In this document: one piece after another, positions 43,090 through 49,775 of the stretch
Position numbering within the stretch: position 1 is the stretch's first letter
How the letters are laid out: each line of letters starts with the position of its first letter
NCBI GenBank assembly: GCA_012838505.1
Contig: DUPD01000016.1
Span: 1-49,775, forward strand
Length of the DNA stretch: 49,775 bases
Direction of reading: 5' to 3'
Origin: Bacilli bacterium
GTDB lineage: Bacteria > Bacillota > Bacilli > Bacillales > Amphibacillaceae
Notes under the pieces: generated by a model
Database searches by the model: none
What the model saw: the letters and a program-made list of their open reading frames with translations, nothing else
Told to the model about the DNA's origin: nothing
Program-made: the position numbers and the translations under genes

Positions 43090-43785
43090 TCAATCATTTA
43101 ATTGATGTAATTCACGAGCAATTGATTCAATCATAAACACAACTGGAACTTGGCTCGTGATATTCGTATATTGATAAAATTCCTCAGTTAAATAATAAGC
43201 AATATTGATATCTGACATCTTGCCAATCGTTGTATGCTTATTATTAGTAATACTAATCACTTTACTGCCTTTTTGCTTCATTTGATTTAATTGATTGATC
43301 GTAAAATGACTCTCACCTGAAACAGACAGAGCGATCGTCACACTATTGTTTTCTAGTTTTGAATGAATCGGATACGATGAATCTTTAATATACAGTGAAA
43401 ATTTTCCTAAACCAGAGAAATAACGTGCGCCATACTCCGCTAAAATACCAGAGCTGCCGTTACCGATAAAAATAATGTTATCCGCATGCTTCACAAGCTC
43501 AGCAGCAGTCAGAATCAACTGTTCCTGTTCAGCTGTTAAATTACGTTCGAAAAATTCTAGTACGGGATGATGACTACTCTTAACTGATTTATGCTGATTT
43601 TCTTGTTCAAGTTTCAGCTTTGTTTTAAACTCGGAAAAGCCTTCACAGCCGAGTTTTTTACAAAAACGCAAAATTGTTGTCGTTGAGACGTGTGTTTCAG
43701 CTGCTAATTCCCGGATTCTCATATAAGCAACTTTTTCACAATGATGAATCACATAATTATAAATCGACGTCTCGAGCTCATTTAT
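43090..43785 (-). CDS. RpiR-family (HTH plus SIS) regulator, start codon apparently lost
   Basis: The HTH_6 domain (VAYMRIRELAAETHVSTTT, FCKKLGCEGFSEFK) and sugar-phosphate-binding SIS domain (IIFIGNGSSGILAEYG, IALSVSGESHFT) identify a repressor of sugar-phosphate genes. A GTG at 43752 would begin MIHHCEKVAYM and cut off the first helix, but the frame continues upstream as NINELETSIYNYV, which is normal RpiR N-terminal sequence, to a stop at 43803-43801. No ATG, GTG or TTG exists in that stretch; ATA at 43785 is the best placed, after AAGTGAG. The start was probably removed by the deletion that truncated the divergent GH4 gene. Expression is doubtful. Confidence 0.7.
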   Translation of the reverse strand: MNELETSIYNYVIHHCEKVAYMRIRELAAETHVSTTTILRFCKKLGCEGFSEFKTKLKLEQENQHKSVKSSHHPVLEFFERNLTAEQEQLILTAAELVKHADNIIFIGNGSSGILAEYGARYFSGLGKFSLYIKDSSYPIHSKLENNSVTIALSVSGESHFTINQLNQMKQKGSKVISITNNKHTTIGKMSDINIAYYLTEEFYQYTNITSQVPVVFMIESIARELHQLND

Positions 43786-44442
43786 ATTGACAAACTCACT
43801 TCAGAAGATGAGTCTAGTGGAACGATGCAAAACATTGTCGATCTAAAGTGGCAACCCGAATTTATTAAGGCATTGCGCGCGATTCCTTGTCCATACCACC
43901 GCTACTACTATAAGACAGAGGAAATGTTTGCCGAAGAAATGAAAGCAGCAGAAACGGAAGGTACAAGAGCAGAAGTTGTCCAAAAACTTGAAAAAGATTT
44001 ATTCGAGCTCTATAAAGACGAATCATTAGCAATCAAACCACCACAACTTGAAAAACGTGGCGGTGCATATTATAGTGATGCAGCTTGTAATTTAATTGAC
44101 TCAATTTATAACGACCGTAAAGATATTCAACCTGTCAATACGATGAATAATGGTGCGATCGCCAGCATCCCAAATCAATCTGCAGTTGAAATTAACTGTC
44201 TGATCACAAAAGACGGCCCAAAGCCAATTGCAATCGGTGATTTACCAGTCGCAACACGCGGGCTCGTCCAACAAATTAAATCATTTGAAAGAGTCGCAGC
44301 TGAAGCCGCTGTAACCGGTGATTATGAGACAGCATTGCTCGCAATGACAATTAACCCACTCGTACCATCTGATACTGTAGCCAAGCAAATTCTTGATGAG
44401 ATGTTAGAAGCACATAAAGCGCATTTACCGCAGTTTGGGTAA
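43783..44442 (+). pseudogene. 3' half of a GH4 6-phospho-beta-glucosidase gene (licH-like)
   Basis: About 220 residues align with the C-terminal half of B. subtilis LicH, which has about 442: PCPYHRYYYKTEEM, AETEGTRAEVVQKLEKDLFE, PPQLEKRGGAYYSDAACNL, GDYETALLAMTINPLVPSD. The N-terminal half, with the NAD+-binding fold and the metal and catalytic residues, is missing, so the protein cannot work. The upstream MMNHIIINRRLELIYI is only the reverse of the rpiR coding region. The remaining frame is undamaged, which suggests a recent deletion. GH4 enzymes split phosphorylated cellobiose-type sugars after PTS import; RpiR-type regulators often control them. Confidence 0.85.
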
Positions 44443-44487
44443 GACCGTTTAATTCACAAAAAAGTCAAGATTTATTCCTAAAATATG

Positions 44488-44516
44488 TTGACAATGTAAA
44501 AGATGGGGTTTATAAT
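44488..44516 (+). promoter_or_regulatory. Consensus sigma-A promoter of the tracrRNA
   Basis: TTGACA (44488-44493), exactly 17 bases, TATAAT (44511-44516): a perfect vegetative promoter, the strongest in the window. The start is expected near 44523. Confidence 0.92.
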
Positions 44517-44522
44517 GGTATT

Positions 44523-44689
44523 AACGACCTAGGGGAAGGTCGTAGAATCATATTACATCAAAGTTCATAGGTAAGTTATTATGGTAAGGCATTAAGCCGT
44601 GGCGTTGGGGATCGCCTATACCCGTCCATGTGACGGGGCTCCCCATCCTTATGACAAGCAATGACTAAAAGTATTTAGTCATTTTTTTT
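44523..44689 (+). ncRNA. tracrRNA of the type II-C CRISPR-Cas9 system
   Basis: About 165 bases between a consensus promoter and a terminator. A 5' hairpin (ACGACCT 44524-44530 with AGGTCGT 44537-44543) precedes the anti-repeat. Bases 44547-44571 repeat the first 25 bases of the array repeat with one C-to-T change, which becomes a G-U pair with crRNA; after a bulge, ATTATGGT (44579-44586 region) pairs with the 5' end of the crRNA repeat. Then come a small GGC/GCC loop, the nexus GGCGTTGGGGATCGCC, and a CCCGTC/GACGGG stem followed by TCCCCATCCTT. This tail matches the Geobacillus stearothermophilus Cas9 tracrRNA as I remember it. The anti-repeat orientation shows that crRNAs come from the minus strand of the array. 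Confidence 0.93.
44661..44689 (+). terminator. tracrRNA terminator
   Basis: ATGACTAAA and TTTAGTCAT form a perfect 9-bp stem with loop AGTA, followed by eight T. Confidence 0.93.
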
Positions 44690-44740
44690 ATATATAAAGC
44701 TAGTAAATAATTCAAAATATATAGAAAAAGGATGATTTGT

Positions 44741-47700
44741 ATGAGGTATGATATTGGTTTAGACATTGGTATTTCATCAGTAGGATGGTCAGTTATTAAC
44801 CGGGATAAAGATCGTATCGAAGCAATGAATGTGCGGATGTTTGATGCAGCTGAAAACCCAAAAAACGGATCCTCACTAGCTACACCAAGAAGAGAAGCTC
44901 GCTCAGCTAGAAGAAGACTGAGACGAAGACGTTATCGTGTAGGTCGTGTTCGACAATTTATTATTAATCAAGGACTACAATCTGCCGTTGAAGCGAATGA
45001 TTTATTCGACTGGCAAGACGGAGACTTTGATATTTGGCTCGTTCGAGTAAATGGACTAGAAAGAAAATTAACTGATCGCGAATTTGCGCGAATTTTAATT
45101 CATTATGCCAAAAATCGTGGCTTTAAATCAAACCGAAAAAGTGAAACAAAAGCAGGTGAGGGCGGTGTTTTACTAAAGGCTGTCCAAGAGAATAAAGCAT
45201 TGATGCAAGAAAAAGCATATCGTACAGTTGCGGATATGCTACTTCGTGATGAGAAATTTGAAGGAAAGAAACGTAATAAAGGTGGTGACTATTCACACGT
45301 GCTCGCAAGAAGTGAAATAGAGGAAGAGATTCGAATTGTTTTCACAAAGCAACGTGAATATGGACATCCATTCGCAACTGAAGAAAACGAAGAGACTTAC
45401 ATAAAGATATGGAGTTCGCAGCGTCCATTTTCTACTCAAGAGGATATTGTGAAGCGGATTGGAAATTGTACGTTTGAACCTAAAGAGAAACGTGCACCTA
45501 AATTTACTTACACATTTGAAAAATTCCGTGCATTAGACAAAATTAATCGGTTGCGAATTATTTCGACTACATCACCACAACGCCCATTAACAAAAGAAGA
45601 AAGATTATTGTTAGTTGAGCAATGTATGGAGAAAAAGGAAGTAAAATATAAGGACTTAAGAAAAATTTTAAAATTGGAAGATCATGAAAAATTTAATGAA
45701 TTATTCTATGATCCGAGTGAAACACATGCAAAAAATGAAAATAGAAGATTTGTCTCACTTGATGGTTATTATCAATTAAAACAGATCGTTCATAGTGTAA
45801 AAGATAAAACGATCGCTGAAGCATTTCGACCAATTGATTATGATACATTGGCTTATGCAGTAACGGTTTATAAAGACGACAATGACACGCGTGATTATCT
45901 CAGAAATAACTATGTCAATACTAACGGAAAGCCAGTCTATAATCTAGCCAATCGAGTATATGATGAACAGCTAATTGAACAAGTTTTAAATCTATCGTTC
46001 TCTCAATTTGGTCATCTATCATTAAAAGCGCTAAATAAAATTATTCCTTTCTTAGAAGAAGGTTATCAGTATCATGAAGCCTGTGAAAAGGCTGGATATA
46101 ATTTCAACCAAAGAGTAGGATTAGAAAAGAAGAGGTTACTACCTGTTATACCAGCTGATGAGATTGCAAACCCGGTTGTGATAAGGTCTTTATCTCAAAC
46201 TAGAAAAATAATAAATGCAATCATTAAAAGATATGGCTCACCATCAAATATATATATTGAAATGGCACGAGACATGGGCAGACATTATAAAGAACGAAAA
46301 GATCTAGAAAAGCAATATAATAAAAACCGAACAGTGAATGATAAAGCAAAAGCTAGGATCAGAGAATTACGACCAGAAATTAGTAATCCTAGAGGTCATG
46401 ATATCTTAAAATTTAAATTGTGGGAAGAACAAAGCAACAGGTGTGCGTATTCACTAGATCCAATTACAATAGAGGATCTATTTGATCAAGGAGCTGTAGA
46501 GGTTGATCATATAATCCCATATAGTAAGAGTTTTGACGATAGTAATTCAAATAAAGTATTAGTATTTGCTAAGCAAAATCAGAATAAAGGAAATAGAATT
46601 CCATATGATTGGTTTGGCTCTGATACTGTTAGGTGGCAAGAATTCAATTCATATGTTAAAGCTTTAAAAATACCTAAGAAGAAGAAGGATCTCTTGCTTA
46701 AAGAAAATTTTGATAATGATCAACAAAATACATTTAAAGCAAGGCATCTAAACGATACACGTTACATTACTCGTTTCTTAAAAGGATTTATTGAAGATAA
46801 TTTAGAATTCAGGAAAGAAGAAGGTAAAAAGCAACATGTCTTTACCGTAAATGGAGCTTACACCTCTTTAATGCGAAAGAGATGGGGCTTTAATAAAGAC
46901 CGTGAAGAGAATGATCTTCATCATGCGGTAGATGCTGTAATAGTTGCGGTAAGTCATCCATTCCAAAACAGAGTTAGCAGATACTTTAAACGCAGTGAAC
47001 AACATGCTTCTCAACTATTGAAACGAAAGGGAGAACGATTCCCTGAGCCATGGGAAGGTTTTACGAGAGAGTTAGAGGCTAGATTAGTTCAAGATCCAGA
47101 TAAACTAAAATTAGCACTTGAAAGCTTGTCTTTATCTGGATACGATGAGGAATTTATCTCTCAAGTAAAACCAATCTTTGTTTCGAGAATGCCGAAACGC
47201 TCGGTTAAAGGACAAATTCATGAAGAAACATTAAGAAGACATCGTGGCTTTACTGAAAAAGGGCTTAATTTAATGGTGAAAAAGTATGCTTTAGAAGATA
47301 TTCCATTCGATAAAAATGGTGATTTTCCAATGTACGGTAAAGAATCGGATCCGAAAACATATCAAGTCATTAAAGAGAGATACTTGGAATATGGAAAGGA
47401 TAAAAAGAAAGCATTTAATGATCCACTATTTAAGCCATCAAAAAATCCAGAAAATGCTCCAATAATTAGGAGTATAAAAATTGAAACAACAGCAAATCAA
47501 GTTTTTTATTTAGATGATAAAACCGTTGCTGAAAATGCTAGTATTGCAAGAACAGAAGTTTTTCGCCATAAAGAGAATGGTAAGTTTTATTTAGCACCTG
47601 TTTATGTTAGTGATGTCGTGGCGAAGCGGGTTCCAGAGAAGTTTATCACGGCGTTAAAGCCTTATTCTGAATGGGATCTGATAACGGATGCCTATGAGTT

Positions 47701-47974
47701 TCTATTTAATTTATATCCTAATGACGTGATTAAAGTTAAAATGCCTAGAGAAAAAACTTCGAAGACAAATACAGGAGAGATAAAAAAATGGATAGAAGAA
47801 ATATTTTATTATAAAGGTGTTGATACTGCAACAGCACAGTTGAATATAACTGAGCATAAAAATGAGTTTTCAGATAGAATAGGTTCAAAGAATTTGAAAC
47901 TCATTGAAAAGTATCAAGTTGATCCGTTAGGAAATCTAACTAAAGTGAATCAGGAAAAGCGCCATGGCGTATAG
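44741..47974 (+). CDS. cas9: Type II-C Cas9 endonuclease, GeoCas9-like
   Basis: 1077 residues from ATG 44741, 9 bases after AAGG; ATG 44732 lies one base from that site. It begins MRYDIGLDIGISSVGW, with RuvC-I D8. The arginine-rich bridge helix is near 48-70 (RREARSARRRLRRRRY), followed by the REC lobe, RuvC-II E507 in IYIEMARDM, HNH with D589, H590 and N613 (VEVDHIIPYSKSF), RuvC-III H728 and D731 (DLHHAVDAVIVA), and a C-terminal PAM-interacting part (PVFVSRMPKRSV-type block near 815). All catalytic residues are present. The whole length resembles G. stearothermophilus Cas9 (1087 residues). It cuts DNA matched by crRNA. Its stop overlaps cas1 by 11 bases. No separate strong promoter is visible after the tracrRNA terminator. 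Confidence 0.97.
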   Translation: MRYDIGLDIGISSVGWSVINRDKDRIEAMNVRMFDAAENPKNGSSLATPRREARSARRRLRRRRYRVGRVRQFIINQGLQSAVEANDLFDWQDGDFDIWLVRVNGLERKLTDREFARILIHYAKNRGFKSNRKSETKAGEGGVLLKAVQENKALMQEKAYRTVADMLLRDEKFEGKKRNKGGDYSHVLARSEIEEEIRIVFTKQREYGHPFATEENEETYIKIWSSQRPFSTQEDIVKRIGNCTFEPKEKRAPKFTYTFEKFRALDKINRLRIISTTSPQRPLTKEERLLLVEQCMEKKEVKYKDLRKILKLEDHEKFNELFYDPSETHAKNENRRFVSLDGYYQLKQIVHSVKDKTIAEAFRPIDYDTLAYAVTVYKDDNDTRDYLRNNYVNTNGKPVYNLANRVYDEQLIEQVLNLSFSQFGHLSLKALNKIIPFLEEGYQYHEACEKAGYNFNQRVGLEKKRLLPVIPADEIANPVVIRSLSQTRKIINAIIKRYGSPSNIYIEMARDMGRHYKERKDLEKQYNKNRTVNDKAKARIRELRPEISNPRGHDILKFKLWEEQSNRCAYSLDPITIEDLFDQGAVEVDHIIPYSKSFDDSNSNKVLVFAKQNQNKGNRIPYDWFGSDTVRWQEFNSYVKALKIPKKKKDLLLKENFDNDQQNTFKARHLNDTRYITRFLKGFIEDNLEFRKEEGKKQHVFTVNGAYTSLMRKRWGFNKDREENDLHHAVDAVIVAVSHPFQNRVSRYFKRSEQHASQLLKRKGERFPEPWEGFTRELEARLVQDPDKLKLALESLSLSGYDEEFISQVKPIFVSRMPKRSVKGQIHEETLRRHRGFTEKGLNLMVKKYALEDIPFDKNGDFPMYGKESDPKTYQVIKERYLEYGKDKKKAFNDPLFKPSKNPENAPIIRSIKIETTANQVFYLDDKTVAENASIARTEVFRHKENGKFYLAPVYVSDVVAKRVPEKFITALKPYSEWDLITDAYEFLFNLYPNDVIKVKMPREKTSKTNTGEIKKWIEEIFYYKGVDTATAQLNITEHKNEFSDRIGSKNLKLIEKYQVDPLGNLTKVNQEKRHGV

Positions 47975-48866
47975 ACATATCGTTATCCGCAATCCCGCTA
48001 AGTTATCTACAGCTAACGAACAATTGGTGATTAAACAAGAAGAAGCGATTAAAATACCGTTAGAGGATATTGTCACAATAACGTTAGAAGACCCTGCAAT
48101 AACTATTACAAATGCTTTACTGAGTAAATGCACAGAGTACCATGTTGAACTGATTATTTGTGATCGCAAAAGAATGCCTAGTGGGATTGTGCAACCATTC
48201 CACAGGCATTCAAGACAAAAGGCAGTTTTAGAAATGCAGTTATCCTTAAGTAAACCATTTAAAAAGCGAATCTGGCAAAAGGTTGTTGTGAGAAAGTTAG
48301 AAAATCAAGCGCGGTGTCTTGAATTAAATCATATGGGAGAAGAGGCTCAAAAGGTTTATGCAATTAGCCGAAGTGTAGAGTCAGGTGATCGAACTAATCG
48401 TGAAGCATACGGTGCAAAAATTTATTTTGAACTTTTATTTGGTAAAGGTTTTCAGCGTAGAGAAGAAAATGTCTACAACATTTGTTTGAACTATGGTTAT
48501 AGTATTATCCGTTCGTTAGTGGCAAGGGCACTAGTTAGGTACGGATTTACGCCAAGCTACGGTGTTTTTCACGATAGTCAAACGAATGCATTTAATTTAG
48601 CGGATGACTTCATGGAAGTTCTCAGACCCTTTGTAGATGTGATTATTGTCTCAAATGTTACTGAAGATGATGAATGGACTCCAGAGATTCGTAAATTATT
48701 ATTCCATGTATTAGATATAGAGGCGGTTTGGAACGGAGAGAAATTAAGTGTCACGCATGGCGTTGACAACATGATAAAAAGCTTTGTATCTGCAAGCCGG
48801 CAGCAAGATGCAAGCCTATTAATTCTCCCTGAACTGACTAATCTAAAAGCTCATAGATATGAGTAG
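47964..48866 (+). CDS. cas1: CRISPR integrase Cas1 (type II)
   Basis: 300 residues, overlapping the end of cas9. The N-terminal beta domain (VIRNPAKLSTANEQL, VELIICDRKRMPSG) is followed by the helical catalytic domain with E147 (NREAYGAKIYF), H203 (YGVFHDSQTNAFNLADDF) and E218, the metal-binding residues of Cas1. With Cas2 it inserts new spacers at the leader end of the array. Length is normal. It overlaps cas2 by 8 bases, so cas9, cas1 and cas2 form one translationally coupled operon. Confidence 0.97.
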   Translation: MAYRHIVIRNPAKLSTANEQLVIKQEEAIKIPLEDIVTITLEDPAITITNALLSKCTEYHVELIICDRKRMPSGIVQPFHRHSRQKAVLEMQLSLSKPFKKRIWQKVVVRKLENQARCLELNHMGEEAQKVYAISRSVESGDRTNREAYGAKIYFELLFGKGFQRREENVYNICLNYGYSIIRSLVARALVRYGFTPSYGVFHDSQTNAFNLADDFMEVLRPFVDVIIVSNVTEDDEWTPEIRKLLFHVLDIEAVWNGEKLSVTHGVDNMIKSFVSASRQQDASLLILPELTNLKAHRYE

Positions 48867-49179
48867 ATATATGAGAATTATCGTCTTCTTTGATTTGCCG
48901 GTTGCCCGTCGACAAGATAGGAAAGCTTACGCAAAATTTAGAAAGTTTTTATTAAATGACGGCTATGTTATGTTACAGTATTCTATTTATTCAAGAATAT
49001 GCAATGGACAAGATGGTGTGGCAAAACATATGCGAAGATTAAATGAAAATCTTCCACGTGTAAATGGAGCGATTCGAGCGCTGAAAATTACCGAAAAACA
49101 ATTTGAAAATATGGATATTTTATTAGGAACAGTCACTCCAGAAGAAGAATTAGGAGCAAATAAAATAGATTTCTTTTAA
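48859..49179 (+). CDS. cas2: CRISPR-associated Cas2
   Basis: 106 residues. The first beta strand MRIIVFFDLPV carries the usual aspartate, followed by YAKFRKFLLNDGYVMLQYS and the end strand DILLGTVTPEEE; a ferredoxin-like fold. Cas2 dimers hold two Cas1 dimers in the spacer-integration complex. No csn2 or cas4 follows, which with the Cas9 size defines subtype II-C. A terminator follows directly. Confidence 0.95.
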   Translation: MSRYMRIIVFFDLPVARRQDRKAYAKFRKFLLNDGYVMLQYSIYSRICNGQDGVAKHMRRLNENLPRVNGAIRALKITEKQFENMDILLGTVTPEEELGANKIDFF

Positions 49180-49180
49180 A

Positions 49181-49214
49181 AAACACTTGCAAATTATTTT
49201 GTGAGTGTTTTTTT
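49181..49214 (+). terminator. Terminator of the cas9-cas1-cas2 operon
   Basis: AAACACTTGC (49181-49190) and GTGAGTGTTT (49201-49210) make a 10-bp stem with two G-U pairs, then T. It begins two bases after the cas2 stop. Confidence 0.87.
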
Positions 49215-49278
49215 AACGATAAATTTAATTAATTTGAACAAAAGTGTGATATATTTACTAGAATTCGAGTGGAATTTT

Positions 49279-49318
49279 AAAAAAGAAATCCCTTGAAACG
49301 GGGAAGAATCAAGGGATT
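49279..49318 (-). terminator. Minus-strand terminator closing the CRISPR array
   Basis: AATCCCTTGA (49287-49296) and TCAAGGGATT (49309-49318) form a perfect 10-bp stem. On the minus strand it is followed by TTTCTTTTTT, so it stops transcripts coming leftward out of the array before they enter cas2 in antisense. Confidence 0.83.
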
Positions 49319-49329
49319 GAGTGCCATGT

Positions 49330-49775
49330 ATCATATCACATCAAAGTTCATAGGGGAATTATGGCAAGAAAAACACAGAGCAATCAACAGAATAAATCAT
49401 ATCACATCAAAGTTCATAGGGGAATTATGGCTGATGATGATGCGGATAATCTCACCTTCTAATCATATCACATCAAAGTTCATAGGGGAATTATGGCGCC
49501 TCGTTTAGTCCACTTACATCGGGCAAGATCATATCACATCAAAGTTCATAGGGGAATTATGGCACACTAACTGATGAAGATTGGAAAAATGTTATCATAT
49601 CACATCAAAGTTCATAGGGGAATTATGGCGTAGCACGCCCTACCCACTGCTTTTTACCATCATATCACATCAAAGTTCATAGGGGAATTATGGCATCTCA
49701 TTCATGTTTAATGGTGGTAGGTCAATCATATCACATCAAAGTTCATAGGGGAATTATGGCGGTGAATATAACAAC
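49330..49775 (-). CRISPR. Type II-C CRISPR array, 7 repeats visible, continues past the window
   Basis: Seven identical 36-bp repeats start at 49330, 49396, 49462, 49528, 49594, 49659 and 49725. On the plus strand each begins ATCATATCACATC and ends GGGGAATTATGGC. Six full spacers are 30, 30, 30, 30, 29 and 30 bases; the seventh is cut by the window end. The tracrRNA anti-repeat and the minus-strand terminator show leftward transcription, so crRNA repeats begin GCCATAATTCCCC and end TGATATGAT. That last 9-mer is an extended -10 promoter element, so each repeat may start its own crRNA inside the next spacer, as in Neisseria type II-C arrays. No spacer matches elsewhere in the window by eye. Confidence 0.97.

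Follow-up and report, generated by a model that had tools for sequence, protein, structure and literature searches.

GeoCas9, ThermoCas9 and AtCas9 are the described nucleases with which the Cas9 analyzed here is best compared. The protospacer-adjacent motif (PAM) of GeoCas9 is given as N4CRAA, and later as N4CWAA, in the accessible part of PMC11658890, which also lists N961, D1017, N1020 and R1035 as the residues that contact the PAM bases. For ThermoCas9, CNAA and CMCA are the best motifs in PMC5698299, and the accessible text of PMC12634846 calls CTAA canonical for GeoCas9 and ThermoCas9 and gives N4CNNA and N4RNNA for AtCas9. Here we analyzed a 49,775-nucleotide contig from a Bacilli bacterium of the Amphibacillaceae (DUPD01000016.1, assembly GCA_012838505.1; our contig C106, hereafter the window), whose right end carries on the plus strand a promoter, a trans-activating CRISPR RNA (tracrRNA), cas9, cas1 and cas2, followed by an array of clustered regularly interspaced short palindromic repeats (CRISPR) that runs to the contig end. 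This locus is an intact type II-C system, ordinary in gene content. Some of its spacers have matches in phages and in prophages of related bacteria, and, with a probability of roughly 0.88, we propose that its Cas9 would cut matches to the 30-nt spacers lying beside N4CTAA. Two clade-wide features, an Asp/His switch at a predicted PAM-reading residue and a hairpin at the 5′ end of the tracrRNA, set this II-C variant apart as worth testing.

The spacers come from the following array:

49330 to 49775, minus strand (CRISPR RNA sense): CRISPR array with 7 repeats, severed by the contig end and resumed on contig C61

The seven 36-nt repeats (49330-49760) are identical, and contig C61 lists 48 further copies, which brings the listed total to 55 with zero mismatches. 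At their ends the window and C61 have one repeat in common, together with portions of the spacers W6 and C1 that flank it; therefore one repeat is counted twice, and the array amounts to ∼54 repeats and ∼53 spacers, of which 51 are distinct. The CRISPR RNA (crRNA) is assigned to the minus strand, since the tracrRNA lies on the plus strand and its anti-repeat resembles the repeat as read on that strand. The locus had been called complete in a first-pass annotation made from the DNA alone, and this is true of the gene set and the tracrRNA but not of the array.

The C61 array stretch, taken as it stands in the genome, was searched against phage and plasmid records, 159 family genomes and 397 order genomes, and the window stretch against phages and 156 family genomes; the family and order sets overlap, and at most two to four candidates were scored per genome in these searches. 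For the viral contigs, three phage proteins together with four spacer seeds served as queries. The fetched loci were then scanned for ungapped spacer matches, the final set comprising 291 loci (2.18 Mb with overlaps). In 137 loci (942 kb, the 8 loci of the own locus excluded), 10 of the 51 spacers had 19 distinct sites at ≤5 mismatches, and five shuffled spacer sets plus one reversed set gave 0 sites. In the final set, nine spacers had sites at ≤4 mismatches outside the arrays (in prophages, phages, viral contigs and a foreign array), with these 3′ flanks:

C8: ACGACTAA
C11: AAAACTAA
C22: TGTTCTAA
C24: GAAACTAA
C36: GACGCTAA
C37: GATGCTAA (one of four flanks)
C40: CGAACTAT
W2: AGCGATTA
W4: TCCACGAT

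Reading the bases 3′ of the matching protospacers for a shared PAM, as the first-pass annotation had proposed, revealed CTA at positions 5-7 in seven of these nine spacers, six of them with CTAA. Position by position, C5, T6 and A7 were each present in 8/9 spacers and A8 in 7/9, counts for which the flank that fits better was used where a spacer has several (C37, four; W4, two). The frequency of CTA in four of the matched loci is 0.014, from which a binomial probability of ∼5e-12 was calculated for 7/9, on the assumption of independent sites and of a motif given in advance. C8, C11 and C24 match one prophage of a same-genus genome, in the portal gene, a small open reading frame (ORF) of unknown function and the tape measure gene, respectively; C36 and C37 both match a single viral contig, in its capsid and scaffold genes; and the CTA site of C22 lies in a Geobacillus phage, its kept match occurring in two Geobacillus phages. 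The C40 site is itself a spacer (L067 10112-10146); it belongs to a bacterium of another genus, in an array whose repeat is different and which we take to be type I-C-like. This foreign spacer was presumably taken from the same phage, and since it overlaps C40, almost the same phage site was apparently acquired by two CRISPR systems. From the flanks of the nine spacers we predict that the window Cas9 reads NNNNCTAA. Its closest relatives probably differ from it in the base read.

The C at position 5 and the A at position 8 are those of a GeoCas9-type PAM (N4C..A). Because N4CTAA falls within the published GeoCas9 range, it would be a narrow form of a known PAM class, and the earlier suggestion that the PAM may differ from that of GeoCas9 is right only in part; the divergence that counts is from the nearest relatives of the enzyme.

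The protein-coding part of the locus comprises:

44741 to 47974, plus strand: cas9 of type II-C, 1077 aa (TIGR01865, 805 bits), with catalytic residues D8, E507, H590 and D731
47964 to 48866, plus strand: cas1 of type II (TIGR03639, 292 bits, cut-off 120)
48859 to 49179, plus strand: cas2 (TIGR01573, 80.8 bits)
49172 to 49219, no strand given: inverted repeat with T runs between cas2 and the array, a possible terminator

Both the RuvC and the HNH nuclease domains of Cas9 were found with intact active sites; translation from the ATG at 44741 yields 1077 residues, and an alternative ATG at 44732 would give 1080. The start of cas1 overlaps the end of cas9 (47974), and that of cas2 overlaps the end of cas1. 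Downstream of cas2 the array follows directly, and beyond it, on C61, lie a 135-aa ORF and then an operon of the bacteriophage exclusion (BREX) type. No csn2 or cas4 was seen beside the cas genes, in flanks whose upstream ORFs were inspected by eye and the nearest ones scanned. Subtype II-C is thus supported by the type II Cas9 and Cas1 models, by cas1-cas2 without csn2 or cas4 alongside, and by the tracrRNA. All the parts named in the first-pass annotation (promoter, tracrRNA, a 1077-residue Cas9 with its four catalytic residues, cas1, cas2 and at least seven identical repeats) were found again.

Among the best 120 of 3127 Cas9 matches (8000 scored), the nearest homolog is 88% identical and none, characterized or not, exceeds 95% identity, so that, judged by these homologs, we regard the protein as a new ortholog. 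Close Cas9s include P0002-P0004 (82-88%), those of Oceanobacillus (74-78%) and that of Siminovitchia fortis (77%), and the named homologs among the matches listed include Virgibacillus, Oceanobacillus, Lentibacillus and Sporolactobacillus. Identity to the G. stearothermophilus Cas9 P0065, which carries all 14 published GeoCas9 residues checked, is 51% overall and 48% in the PAM domain. The best-matching solved chains are Cas9s that we take to be GeoCas9 entries (PDB 8jtj, 8uza), and the earlier label "GeoCas9-like" is supported. Shared with GeoCas9 are the catalytic residues, the equivalents of D1017 and R1035, the tracrRNA nexus and C at PAM position 5; in contrast, GeoCas9 N961 and N1020 are replaced by L972 and T1031, and the tracrRNA has a 5′ hairpin that is absent from the Geobacillus-like loci examined. 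P0002-P0004 and the Oceanobacillus Cas9s belong to the same clade as the window Cas9, and a repeat, a tracrRNA and a 5′ hairpin of the same kind are present at the loci of O. arenosus and O. manasiensis, but in these Cas9s D1028 is replaced by His and position 1046 is not Arg. When identity outside and inside the PAM domain was compared for the ten nearest Cas9s, the biggest gap was that of P0003 (89% versus 71%).

The residues in question are encoded as follows:

47822 to 47878, plus strand: codons D1028 to R1046 of cas9, the predicted PAM-reading pair (GeoCas9 D1017 and R1035), placed by alignment

At the four GeoCas9 contact positions the window Cas9 has L972, D1028, T1031 and R1046; a gap in the MAFFT alignment set D1045 opposite R1035, where the HMMER alignment sets R1046. 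Among 79 long Cas9s (up to P0082, the window included), 35 have Asp with Arg, 2 were scored by script as Asp without Arg, and 42 have His, none of the latter with Arg. Of the two exceptions, P0043 does have a shifted Arg and P0077 has Lys. On a quick tree of 71 of the 79 Cas9s, built with the PAM domain left out and with P0043 set to Arg by hand, the Asp/His label changes 13 times, at least 12 of these changes being forced by well-supported branches, and Arg1046 accompanies Asp in 12/12 independent pairs (sign test p 0.0005). In Nme-type orthologs, of which 29 were tested and 25 were active, Asp at this place goes with C5 and His or Asn with R5, according to the accessible part of PMC9433092. 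By this likeness the C at PAM position 5 would be read by D1028, partnered by R1046, and for the His relatives a G or an A at this position is predicted. Nme1Cas9 and Nme2Cas9 (N4GATT and N4CC) are likewise close Cas9s that differ at the position-5 reader, His with G and Asp with C (same portion of PMC9433092), whereas a single tree of the window Cas9 and its homologs shows no fewer than 12 such switches, linked to a second residue, Arg1046.

Protospacers of the relatives, taken from outside their own arrays, suggest, and only suggest, that the His-type enzymes read G5. Two sites of the His-type O. arenosus have G5: ACTTGTGA, matched at 28/30 in Bacillus phage B103, and TAACGTTA, matched at 26/30 in a viral contig. 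Against this, the 27/30 site of the His-type O. manasiensis, GTATTTTC, has T5, so that of the three sites weighed (≥26 matches) two speak for the His rule and one against it. The weaker sites are mixed. For O. manasiensis they are TCGAATAT (25/30, A5) and ACGAATTA (24/30); for O. arenosus, AACAAATA and TCCTGCTC (both 25/31) and GGCTTGAT and GGGATTTA (both 24/30) have A, G, T and T at position 5, respectively. The Lentibacillus array G093, whose Cas9 is taken as the His-type P0023, has TTTACCAA (25/30, C5). On the Asp side, the locus G101 (Asp in its last cas9 piece) has CTCACGCA, CTAACGAA and CTCGGAAA (25/30; C, C and G at position 5), and S. fortis a single 25/30 site, GGGCAGAT, with A5. The Sporolactobacillus spacers gave no convincing phage match. 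In G101 (L203-L205) cas9 is fragmented and interrupted by a TGA, and the tracrRNA hairpin and the array persist.

The second clade-wide feature lies in the tracrRNA, whose parts are:

44488 to 44516, plus strand: sigma-A type promoter, TTGACA-17-TATAAT, 12/12 consensus match
44522 to 44690, plus strand: predicted tracrRNA, its start taken from the promoter and its end from the terminator; fold z-score -2.64, aligned with 6 other species
44524 to 44543, plus strand: 5′ hairpin, ACGACCT-AGGGGA-AGGTCGT, with compensatory changes across 10 loci
44547 to 44585, plus strand: anti-repeat, found by its repeat match; duplex with the repeat -43.6 kcal/mol
44600 to 44616, plus strand: TGGCGTTGGGGATCGCC, common to Geobacillus-like tracrRNAs, which we take to be the nexus
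44660 to 44690, plus strand: intrinsic terminator with a 10-bp stem and a T-rich tail, from the fold, kept in 7 species

The promoter is the top one of 20 promoter-like sites in 44400-49775; only its perfect 12/12 score is worth remark, because shuffled sequences average 21.7 sites at the 9-of-12 threshold. Similar boxes stand at the same place in most of the relatives aligned. When the C61 array stretch was compared with the genome, the anti-repeat (E 6.5e-6) was the only hit under E 0.1 outside the array. The terminator is missing from the list of the consensus scan, and an Rfam search gave no match.

The hairpin follows directly on the inferred transcription start and was first noticed in the seven-species alignment. 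In ten loci (set A2), compared with 500 shuffles, 97.1% of 69 cells pair (64.7% when shuffled), 21 cells are double changes (5.7 when shuffled) and the covariation score is 0.956 (0.287 when shuffled); each value was reached by 0/500 shuffles. Six of the seven pairs change on both sides, which 44/500 shuffles also reached, and with the columns shifted by 1 to 3 at most 50% paired. The loop GGGGA is constant across the A2 loci, that of G093 being one base shorter. A hairpin of 7-13 bp with a GGGG loop was found in 11/11 close-clade loci (the eleventh, G101, lies outside A2) and in 0/11 distant loci with a recognizable tracrRNA, two of which are near-identical. Such a tracrRNA 5′ hairpin is not described in the open-access papers searched, a scope outside which most subscription papers fall. 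Tracr-L, which we take to be the natural single guide of the S. pyogenes type II-A system, also has an extended 5′ part, but the extension in the window is a short closed hairpin.

The GGGGAA of the loop complements the UUCCCC of the crRNA repeat, and UUCCCC is kept in the repeats read, those of the window and eight relatives; two close loci enter the hairpin count and not this one. The tracrRNA, from the plus strand, would pair with the minus-strand crRNA, and the duplex would be processed and loaded on Cas9, whose two nuclease domains would cut the target. With less confidence, we suggest that the hairpin shields the tracrRNA 5′ end and that its loop first touches the UUCCCC of the repeat. 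A clade-wide version of this model, in which the GGGGA loop kisses UUCCCC to start the pairing and the PAM switch (Asp with Arg for C5, His without Arg for G5) flipped at least 12 times, presumably under phage pressure, is put forward tentatively, and we would not expect all of it to hold. The chances are even that the hairpin is instead a mere stabilizing stem-loop, or a DNA operator palindrome, unrelated to the crRNA. Stem-loops at the 5′ end stabilize RNAs in bacilli, and the position of this one coincides with the inferred start of transcription; its 6-base loop could also match the repeat because it is the remnant of a repeat copy. The GGGGAA/UUCCCC pairing alone is worth -8.7 kcal/mol, but the repeat alone folds weakly (-0.5 kcal/mol), so a true loop-loop contact is uncertain. 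An operator, however, would keep its sequence, whereas here both stem arms change together around a constant loop. Furthermore, in both Sporolactobacillus loci and in G043 the nexus GGGGA has become AGGGA and the hairpin loop stays GGGGA, and the repeats read from these (one Sporolactobacillus and G043) keep UUCCCC, which argues that the loop follows the repeat.

For the PAM, the alternative is that the enzyme accepts the broader N4CNNA or N4CNAA of GeoCas9, ThermoCas9 and AtCas9, and that T6 reflects the few phages sampled. These three enzymes accept CNAA or CNNA to differing degrees, one prophage accounts for three of the seven CTA sites and one viral contig for two more, and a 29/30 site of C37 has CGAA. 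Since T6 is found in 8/9 spacers and the CTA sites come from four separate sources, we consider this broader specificity rather less probable than not. Several observations weigh against N4CTAA as the motif. The loci were picked by likeness to the spacers or to prophage genes, for which the shuffles do not control. The choice of flank for C37 favours CTA, its two perfect matches carrying GATGCTAA and GACACGGT; with C37 left out, CTA stands at 6/8. Besides the 30/30 match with GACACGGT, C37 has near matches with CGAA and GGAA, the 30/30 match of W2 has the flank AGCGATTA, and W4 (26/30) is flanked by CGAT or CGTG. C22 is weak alone (E 3 in the phage search, with two mismatches within the last four bases), C40 is moderate alone (E 2.2e-4 for one of 159 genomes), and the eighth PAM base at the C40 site is the last base of the foreign spacer. 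Sites below 26/30 for C12, C9, C27, C19, C29, C42 and W5 are without CTA; those for C8 (ACGACTAA), C35 (GTAGCTAC) and C36 (GAAGCTAA) again have CTA, and all of these were left out of the counts. The genomes with misfitting W2 and C37 flanks need not be the spacer sources, yet the misfit stands. That the locus is a silent or decayed remnant, as the split of the array across contigs might suggest, is very improbable, given that its frames are open, its active sites intact and its promoter perfect, that none of the 55 listed repeat copies has a mismatch, and that some spacers are directed against a same-genus prophage.

The preferred reading, an intact II-C system with a predicted N4CTAA specificity, adds one more compact Cas9 with a PAM prediction ready for testing. 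Its relatives form a natural set of close Cas9s that differ at the PAM-reading pair, with which one can study the frequency and the causes of natural flips in PAM specificity, and test whether a two-residue code is transferable between enzymes. If it truly aids crRNA finding, the 5′ hairpin would be a new functional part of guide RNAs, with possible consequences for the design of guides in this branch.

Some candidate matches were set aside. Hits of the C61 array to Vibrio, Arcobacter and Moellerella among the phage and plasmid records run across repeat borders and were rejected. Likewise, the best match of this stretch to its own genome outside the locus (E 0.14, 25/25 candidates scored) spans a repeat border and was attributed to chance; the window spacers gave no own-genome match at E 0.05 outside the arrays and the anti-repeat (4/11 candidates scored). 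The homologs of W2 are uninformative about the PAM, their flanks being many and different. Against the viral contigs, the seeds of W2 and C9 gave 0 matches and that of W4 diverged sites only.

The spacer pair W6-C1 (L005 1-3154; window 49659-49775) recurs at the far array end, there as C46-C47, and this probably broke the assembly at that point; recombination between the two copies could remove ∼46 units. In crRNA sense, the repeat (49330-49760, minus strand) ends in TGATATGAT, near an extended -10 box, and each spacer might have its own promoter, as is reportedly the case in Neisseria. Past the far array end (L005, contig C61, 4663-13041) lie brxA, brxB, brxC and pglX of a BREX defence system, and the CRISPR locus therefore sits within a defence island.

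The genome measures 2.33 Mb in 111 contigs and is 86% complete. A mesophilic host is plausible, because among named relatives the one closest to the thioredoxin reductase encoded next to the locus belongs to Amphibacillus (85% identity). Adjoining the CRISPR locus, a 233-aa open frame (window 43741-44442) matches the C-terminal part of a family 4 glycosidase (255-429 of a 432-position model) and is probably a truncated gene.

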